A DNA stretch of 64,000 nt, taken from assembly GCA_947626145.1 (NCBI GenBank), contig CANQRB010000003.1:62001-126000 (forward strand). The letters run 5' to 3'. This document shows, one piece after another, positions 796-3,107 of this stretch (position 1 is the first letter of the stretch; every line of letters begins with the position of its first letter). Source of the stretch: an uncultured Clostridia bacterium. GTDB taxonomy: Bacteria; Bacillota; Clostridia; UMGS1883. Under the pieces are notes generated by a model. That model was not told the DNA's origin. It ran no database searches and saw only the letters and a list, made by a program, of their open reading frames with translations. Made by a program: the position numbers and the translations under genes.

Positions 796-1356
796 TCAAT
801 ACACTATCTCTCCCGCCAGAATGGCCCTGGCGGTGTCTATCATCTTGCTGCCGTTGTTCATGCTCACCCGCTGGATAAAGCGGTGGGCCTGATCCTCGGT
901 CATGTTGTTCTGCTCCATGAGCAGCTCCTTGGCCCGGGTAATGGTTTGTTTGTCCAAATCGCTCCGGCCGGGGCGCTTATCCTCGCCGCTCTTTTTTGTG
1001 CCGGGCTTGTCGTTTATCATTATAACAGTTTTCAGTGTGTCCAGAAGAGCCGTCCGGCTCACGGGCAGATTTATGCTTTGGATGCCGTAGGGCAGCTCAA
1101 CCGCTCCCACCTGATTTTGGGCCAGAAGCACCAGCATACCCACGCCCTGGGGCAGGTCGGCATATACCTCCGCCGCGGTGGTGTCCTTAAGTCTGTAGCC
1201 GCAGACCACCGCCGAAGCCGGCGCCCACTCCAGCATACGCAGAACCTCGGCGCCGCCGGAGCAGATCCCGCTGACGCCGTAGCCCCCGAGCTGAATGACA
1301 CGCCTTATGGTCTCGGCCGCTTCGGGATTCTGAAAAGCTATTACCACACTTTTCAT
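796..1356 (-). CDS. ANTAR domain RNA-binding regulator with receiver-like N-terminus
   Basis: C-terminal ITRAKELLMEQNNMTEDQAHRFIQRVSMNNGSKMIDTARAIL matches ANTAR; lies immediately downstream of glnA. Confidence 0.85.
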   Translation of the reverse strand: MKSVVIAFQNPEAAETIRRVIQLGGYGVSGICSGGAEVLRMLEWAPASAVVCGYRLKDTTAAEVYADLPQGVGMLVLLAQNQVGAVELPYGIQSINLPVSRTALLDTLKTVIMINDKPGTKKSGEDKRPGRSDLDKQTITRAKELLMEQNNMTEDQAHRFIQRVSMNNGSKMIDTARAILAGEIVY

Positions 1357-1391: not shown

Positions 1392-2723
1392 TCAGTATTT
1401 GCCGAGATATTTATCCATTTCCCAGCGGGTGACCTGGGTGCGGTACTCGTCCCACTCGGATTTTTTCGCCTTCACATATCTGTCAAAAACCTCGTTGCCA
1501 AGGGTCTCGCGGACGAGGCTGTCCCTCTCCATGGCCGCCACGGCCGCCTCGAGAGTGCCGGGCAGGCTTTCGATACCCATGCTGAGCCGCTGATTTTCCG
1601 TCAGGCTGAAAATCGAAATATTCACGCTTTCCGGAGGGGCGATCTGCTCCCTGATGCCCTCGAGACCGGCCTTGAGGATAACGGCCAGAGCCAGATAGGG
1701 GTTACAGGTGGGATCGGGGCAGCGGAGCTCAACTCTCGTTCCGGCCCCTCTTGCCGCCGGAATACGGATAAGAGTGCTGCGGTTGGAGGCACTCCATGAA
1801 ATATAGCAGGGAGCCTCGTAGCCGGGCACCAGCCGCTTATATGAGTTGACCGTGGGGTTCGTCACGGCGGTGAGGCCCTTGATGTGCTCCAGCACGCCGC
1901 CGATGAAGCTGTAGGCTAGCTCGCTCAGGCCGTTGTCGGCGCCCTCGTCATAGAAGGCGTTGCCCTTATCGTTCATCAGGCTCATGTTGGTGTGCATACC
2001 GCTGCCGTTGATGCCGAAAATGGGCTTTGGCATAAAGGTGGCGTGGAGGCCGTGGCGCTGGGCGATGGTCTTGACTACCAGCTTAAAGGTGATTATATTG
2101 TCGGCCGTGCGCAGAGCATCGTCGTAACGGAAGTCAATCTCGTGCTGGCCGGGGGCCACCTCGTGATGGGATGCCTCGATCTCGAAGCCCATCTCCTCAA
2201 GAGTCTGGATTATGTCGCGGCGGCAGTTTTCGCCGCCGTCAATAGGCGCCAAATCAAAGTAGCCGCCCTCGTCGTTGGTCTTGACGGTGGGCCGACCCTC
2301 GTCGTCGGTGTGGAACAGGAAGAACTCGCACTCGGGGCCCACGTTGAAGGTGTAGCCCATTTCGGCCGCCTCCCGCAGGGTGCGCTTCAGTATATAGCGG
2401 GGGTCGCACTCAAAGGGTGTGCCGTCGGAGTTATAAACATCGCAGATAAGGCGCGCCACCTTGCCCTGCTGGGGCCGCCAGGGAAATATTACGAAGGTGT
2501 CAAGATCGGGGTAGAGATACATATCCGACTGCTCGATCTTCGCAAAGCCGTCGATGGACGAGCCGTCGAACATACACTGGTTGTCCAGAGCCTTTTTGAG
2601 CTGGCTCTTGGTTATGGCCATATTCTTAAGCTGGCCGAAAACATCGGTAAACTGGAGGCGTATAAATCTTACGTCGTTTTCCTCCACAAGCCGTATGATG
2701 TCACTTTTGGTGTATTTTCCCAT
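1392..2723 (-). CDS. glnA: Type I glutamine synthetase
   Basis: [37 protein letters not shown]..., [34 protein letters not shown]; start at Met21 of the listed ORF, preceded by GGAGGAGG. Confidence 0.95.
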
Positions 2724-2739
2724 TAAAAAATCCTCCTCC

Positions 2740-2827
2740 CGGCCACAAACCGTCGCGGCCGCGGAATAGACGAAAGACCCCATTGCCTTTCATCTTACAT
2801 TATAGCAGTAAAGGCGGAATTTTGCAA
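2740..2827 (-). promoter_or_regulatory. glnA promoter plus tandem hexaloop ANTAR-target leader (P1 2769-2794, P2 2740-2761)
   Basis: -35 TTGCAA (2827-2822), 17-nt spacer, -10 TATAAT (2804-2799); P1 GATGAAAGGC-AATGGG-GTCTTTCGTC; P2 CGGCCGCG-ACGGTT-TGTGGCCG; both hexaloops have A1 and G4; SD follows P2 directly. Confidence 0.75.
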
Positions 2828-3107
2828 CCCACTTTTTTACTATTATTTCACCAAAACCCTTTTATTTTTTATCTATTTTATCCTCATGTAATTAAAAAGG
2901 CTTCCCCTCGGAGGGGAAAGCTTTTGCATCGTCTGTCGTTGTTAACATAAACCGTACAGCGGCGCGCCGAGGTCGTCGCGCCCTACCGTGGTATTTGTCA
3001 TTGTTACTAAAGTATGTAAATGCCACATATTAAAGGCTTCCCCTCGAGGGGAAGCCTTTATCCTTGTCATTGTTACCTTATACTAATTCTTGATTAAAAG
3101 CAATTTT

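Follow-up and report, generated by a model that had tools for sequence, protein, structure and literature searches.

A terminator-less, Shine-Dalgarno-abutting glnA leader in a clostridial genus is a putative target of the adjacent NitR-type ANTAR protein

The window, a 64,000-nucleotide stretch of the genome of an uncultured Clostridia bacterium, contains a glutamine synthetase gene, glnA, with two tandem hexaloop hairpins in its 5' leader, raising the question of whether this leader is the target of an ANTAR protein and, if so, at which step of expression it would act. The gene (1392..2723, minus strand; 443 aa; Pfam PF00120, E 1e-141, and PF03951) is the genome's only glutamine synthetase match at E <= 1e-30. 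The next gene, which starts 35 nt after glnA, encodes a NitR-type protein of 186 aa with a C-terminal ANTAR domain (796..1356, minus strand; PF03861, 57.5-59 bits). The initial annotation, whose scope was the glnA site alone, had placed the likely binder directly downstream of glnA, and the candidate encoded there is the sole ANTAR-domain protein over the cut-off in the genome.

Direct reading of the minus strand bore out nearly every detail of the hairpins annotated at 2740-2794. P1 (2794..2769) reads GATGAAAGGC[AATGGG]GTCTTTCGTC and has 10 pairs, including two GU, around the hexaloop AATGGG (2784..2779); P2 (2761..2740) reads CGGCCGCG[ACGGTT]TGTGGCCG and has 8 pairs, again including two GU, around the hexaloop ACGGTT (2753..2748). 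Both loops are 6 nt with A at position 1 and G at position 4 (A1/G4), and the 7-nt linker, TATTCCG (2762..2768, minus strand), falls inside the 2-25 nt that separates the two stem-loops of a dual-hexaloop ANTAR-target RNA, all as annotated. The linker is also partly able to pair with the Shine-Dalgarno (SD) region (GGAGGAGGA, 2731..2739, minus strand), giving an extended P2; the SD core, GGAGG (2736..2732), lies 8 nt 5' of the ATG. RNAfold formed both hairpins in the leader (z = -4.4; 0 of 200 shuffles folded as well), with the terminal A and U of the P2 hexaloop pairing with each other in the minimum-energy fold, which leaves a tetraloop. Under a descriptor for dual A1/G4 hexaloops the leader scored 44, a value reached by 0 of 5000 dinucleotide shuffles.

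Upstream of the hairpins, the annotated σ70-type promoter, TTGCAA-17-TATAAT, was found at 2827..2799 of the minus strand, with its -35 hexamer at 2822..2827 and its -10 hexamer at 2799..2804 on either side of a 17-nt spacer, and it is conserved in all six glnA leaders of the genus. From the usual promoter spacing the +1 would be expected at about 2793-2791, so that transcription may begin inside P1, past its outer one to three pairs; these outer pairs are also the ones broken in relatives. Just 5' of the -35 hexamer, an A-rich stretch (AGATAAAAAATAAAAGGGTTTTGGTGAAATAATAGTAAAAAAGTGGGTTG, 2830-2885) is strongly conserved in five of the genus glnA leaders and is possibly an UP element or a regulator site.

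The N-terminal half of the ANTAR protein aligns to the receiver domains of EutV and Rv1626 from the PDB. In this alignment the column of the phospho-acceptor Asp holds Gly53 in the window's protein and Ser in that of the relative L012, while the conserved Lys of KP has given way to another residue; a Pfam search of the protein gave no receiver match. The loss of both residues from the receiver-like domain makes phosphorylation an unlikely input, and classification as a EutV-type phosphorylated two-component regulator, which calls for a receiver with a phospho-acceptor Asp, was rejected. An AlphaFold model made with six close sequences had acceptable ANTAR helices (pLDDT 73-84) and a poor N-terminal half. 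We infer that the protein is of the same type as NitR, a likeness drawn from the description of NitR.

Comparison within the genus covered six glnA leaders from eight genomes, among which the relatives with names are MAGs carrying the label 'uncultured Clostridia bacterium' and 'Lapin' isolate names, presumably from rabbit gut. An orthologue of P1 is present in all six leaders and a second hexaloop hairpin in five, and A1 and G4 are kept while the remaining loop bases vary (AATGTT, AAGGTC, AAAGGG); the P2 loop of L016 is possibly 5 nt, and that of L018 is degenerate, without A1/G4. In L018 (G011:C4), the most diverged member, P1 is kept with the loop AAAGGC and three GC-rich hairpins replace P2, the last of them a few nt 5' of the SD. 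Covariation within the genus is weak, including that of P2 (68-137 of 500 shuffles were as good); these pair counts leave out L018, whose MAFFT alignment with the others is unreliable. The annotated position of P2 against the SD was confirmed and recurs, since in the leaders of four species, those of the window, L015, L016 and L017, 1-3 nt separate the SD from the base of P2 or of extended P2. The pairing between linker and SD side varies among the four leaders (UUCC:GGAG, UUCAC:GUGGG, CAC:GUG). The glnA leader thus has the arrangement of the RBS subtype of ANTAR-target RNAs, whose motif lies over or directly beside the RBS or start codon.

Across the class, a profile search found relatives of the ANTAR protein in 67 of 393 genomes, and of 60 further Clostridia loci, 55 have glnA immediately 5' of the ANTAR gene in the same orientation, the median distance between the two genes being 57 nt. 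This pairing resembles the NitR arrangement of C. saccharobutylicum and suggests that NitR-type control is a common clostridial route to regulating ammonium assimilation. For an unbiased, non-circular test of pairing, every ANNGGN hexamer in the Clostridia glnA leaders was taken regardless of pairing and its 5-nt flanks were assessed; flanks with all five pairs were observed 28 times versus 3.0 expected on reshuffling the flanks, with control loop motifs near expectation and many pair types in use in the stems. The class-wide loop is mostly AA(A/T/G)GG(C/T/G/A), closed by a C-G pair. In an alignment of 13 modules the P1 helix covaries (12 double-changed cells; 0 of 500 shuffles), and so does a terminator helix formed with the loop and 3' arm of P1 (likewise 12 double-changed cells and 0 of 500 shuffles); since both a hexaloop hairpin and a terminator were required of these rows, the alignment serves to illustrate their mutual exclusivity. 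Covariation in orthologous glnA leaders, the lack of which would have told against the annotated RNA, was therefore present for P1 across Clostridia. Taken together, the sequence comparisons make the glnA leader a well-supported putative ANTAR-target RNA.

For most hexaloop hairpins in the Clostridia glnA leaders, the loop and 3' arm are also part of a covarying intrinsic terminator, an overlap that is the published antitermination design (PMC3369931); automatic classification of 57 leaders gave a terminator-like hairpin in 37 and a hexaloop hairpin in 23. Many clostridial modules have one strong hexaloop hairpin each, unlike the textbook layout with two. They were seen in L028, L036, L045, L054, L058-L060, L064, L071, L074 and the amtB modules described below, the hairpin lying near the 5' end of the transcript with its loop and 3' arm common to the terminator. 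In some cases, for example L031 and L049, the top of the terminator holds a second, nested hexaloop. L077, L078 and L079 have classical dual A1/G4 hexaloops in which P2 overlaps a terminator, 5' of glnA genes that are outside the usual same-strand position before the ANTAR gene.

A second putative target was found upstream of the gene for an amtB-P-II fusion (a 588-aa frame) in the window's genome, where two tandem hexaloop modules lie at G000:C5:30385-30540 (L107:1240-1400). Downstream of module 1, CATAGC[AAGGGC]GCTGTG, come a GCGCCC-type hairpin and a T7 run; module 2, GTAC[AATGGC]GTAC, is succeeded by another hairpin and a T-rich tail. Two hexaloop modules precede amtB-P-II in all eight genus genomes, two of which are assemblies without detectable glnA and ANTAR genes, and a terminator-like hairpin follows each module in the genus genomes inspected. 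The ANTAR protein very probably controls amtB-P-II by classical antitermination. Two models of our own, R1 for the dual hexaloop and R2 for the hexaloop-terminator, were searched against the genome; R1 gave one site, the glnA leader, and R2 gave the amtB modules plus weak matches, of which those inspected were ordinary-looking hairpins without an A1/G4 hexaloop hairpin. Beyond glnA and amtB, no other credible target was found in the genome with R1 and R2. Rfam 15 had no family at gathering score within the window, and a permissive Rfam search over the glnA leader returned no ANTAR-named family at E <= 5, only chance-level or unrelated matches.

The absence of a classical terminator from the glnA leader, as first annotated, was upheld by a standard terminator scan, which found none, and by R2, which did not match; in particular, the leader has no intrinsic terminator overlapping P2 of the kind that marks the antitermination subtype. 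Because relatives and the genome's own amtB have hexaloop-terminator modules, this absence is a trait of the glnA leader and not of the system. Occlusion of the SD by the RNA alone is modest (0.7-4.8 kcal/mol), and shuffling the upstream part of the leader makes it no weaker. Sequestration of the SD by the RNA as a stand-alone device was rejected, since shuffled upstream sequence closes the SD about equally. The adjacency of P2 to the SD, being conserved, is the stronger fact.

With P2 directly against the SD and no terminator conserved in the leader, control would most likely be exerted at translation initiation. We propose, with slightly better than even confidence, that the leader is a dual-hexaloop target of the adjacent NitR-type protein and that glnA is controlled at translation initiation by anti-sequestration. 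When nitrogen is scarce, an ANTAR dimer would clamp P1 and P2 as two separate short hairpins, so that the linker and the 3' flank of P1 could no longer pair with the SD and extended P2 would be undone; the freed SD would then allow translation of glnA, anti-sequestration taking the place of antitermination. The sequence itself shows the hairpins and how they are conserved, the partner gene and sister targets, and that no terminator is conserved; binding, the translational level and the positive direction of this scheme are inferred. Activation is favored because amtB is presumably activated by the same protein and because NitR activates glutamine synthetase genes under nitrogen limitation; NitR is described in PMC6316151, citing Stutz 2007, as an antiterminator that induces glutamine synthetase in this condition.

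The main rival turns the direction around, with an ANTAR dimer on P1 and P2 stabilizing the SD-adjacent P2, blocking the 30S subunit and so repressing translation. The base of P2 lying 1-3 nt from the SD in four species favors such a repressor, as do the ANTAR RNAs of actinobacteria, many of which extend over the RBS and act as repressors (PMC8164766); nevertheless, repression of glnA by the protein that presumably activates amtB would be physiologically odd, and clostridial NitR is described as an activator in PMC6316151, so that we regard translational repression as unlikely, although a serious contender. The extended P2 (linker, P2 and SD; -22.8 kcal/mol) ends at UUUUUU in the window, where L014 has UUUUUC and L015 a partial U-run, and in other Clostridia P1 and the terminator compete for the P1 loop and 3' arm, which together would suit an unusual attenuator whose base is kept from forming by ANTAR-bound P1. 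However, the run is absent in L016 and L017, and we rejected it as a conserved terminator; the base of the extended stem is mismatched and GU-rich, and both the terminator scan and the hexaloop-terminator model were negative, making attenuation a rather improbable account of the leader.

Two further explanations dispense with an ANTAR-dependent switch. That the hairpins serve mainly as a 5' mRNA stabilizer, P1 blocking decay, fits the position of P1 at the expected 5' end of the transcript, but leaves unexplained both the retention of A1/G4 hexaloops despite changing stems and other loop bases and the neighboring ANTAR gene in 55 of 60 loci; we consider it very improbable. Chance hairpins beside a coincidental ANTAR gene are the least credible explanation and are already contradicted by the comparative data: some dual hexaloop, if a weak one, does appear under the same descriptor in ~1.3% of shuffled glnA leaders of like composition, but the window's score appeared in none of the 5000 shuffles, the dual hexaloop recurs in five of six genus species, and fully paired ANNGGN flanks are enriched 28 versus 3 class-wide.

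Like the RNAs of EutV/eut, NasR/nasF and AmiR/ami (Ramesh et al. 2012, PMC3369931), the glnA leader has two tandem hairpins with 6-nt A1/G4 loops and a short linker in the 5' leader of a nitrogen gene, and the matches reported in 2012 include glutamine synthesis, ammonium transporter and P-II genes (PMC3369931). In contrast to those systems, in which P2 overlaps an intrinsic terminator, the glnA leader has no conserved terminator and its P2 abuts the SD; because the class-wide list of 2012 was screened for P2-overlapping terminators (PMC3369931), terminator-less sites would have been dropped from it. As in NitR-glnA of Clostridium saccharobutylicum (Stutz 2007, cited in PMC6316151), an ANTAR regulator is tied to a glutamine synthetase gene, although control there is described as transcription antitermination together with antisense RNA, whereas the leader here lacks the terminator. 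Mycobacterial and actinobacterial ANTAR RNAs (PMC8164766) share the dual hexaloop beside or over the RBS and an expected translational action, but they belong to another phylum and other target genes, and the RBS-type mycobacterial RNAs are reported to repress translation, not to activate it (PMC8164766).

ANTAR RNAs 5' of glutamine synthetase and ammonium transporter genes, and RBS-overlapping ones in actinobacteria, are thus already published; what is new is a terminator-less, SD-abutting glnA form in a clostridial genus whose amtB retains the terminator form. A more tentative proposal, to which we give somewhat less than an even chance, is that one ANTAR protein has two outputs, antitermination at amtB-P-II and terminator-less translational activation at glnA, the latter having arisen in the genus when a second, SD-abutting hexaloop hairpin replaced the glnA terminator. 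With six glnA and eight amtB leaders and one ANTAR protein, the genus offers a compact comparative set in which the same regulator probably faces terminator-type and RBS-type targets, which would make the translational output of an ANTAR dimer directly testable. The set also bears on the signal read by a receiver-like domain without a phospho-acceptor.

Two other elements flank this locus. Just 5' of the glnA promoter region, 2895-3065 is part of a dispersed repeat family whose ends are palindromic (AAAGGCTTCCCCTCGAGGGGAAGCCTTT), which has 79 matches in the window's genome and 66 in the relative G014, was not detected in four of the eight genus genomes and may be a MITE-like element; Rfam BTnc231 matched this repeat weakly, below gathering. 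After the ANTAR gene, two minus-strand genes at 36-777, judged by sequence, resemble those for a nucleotidyltransferase (GSCARG...DSDIDLMV motif) and its HEPN-type partner and may form an MNT-HEPN toxin-antitoxin pair.
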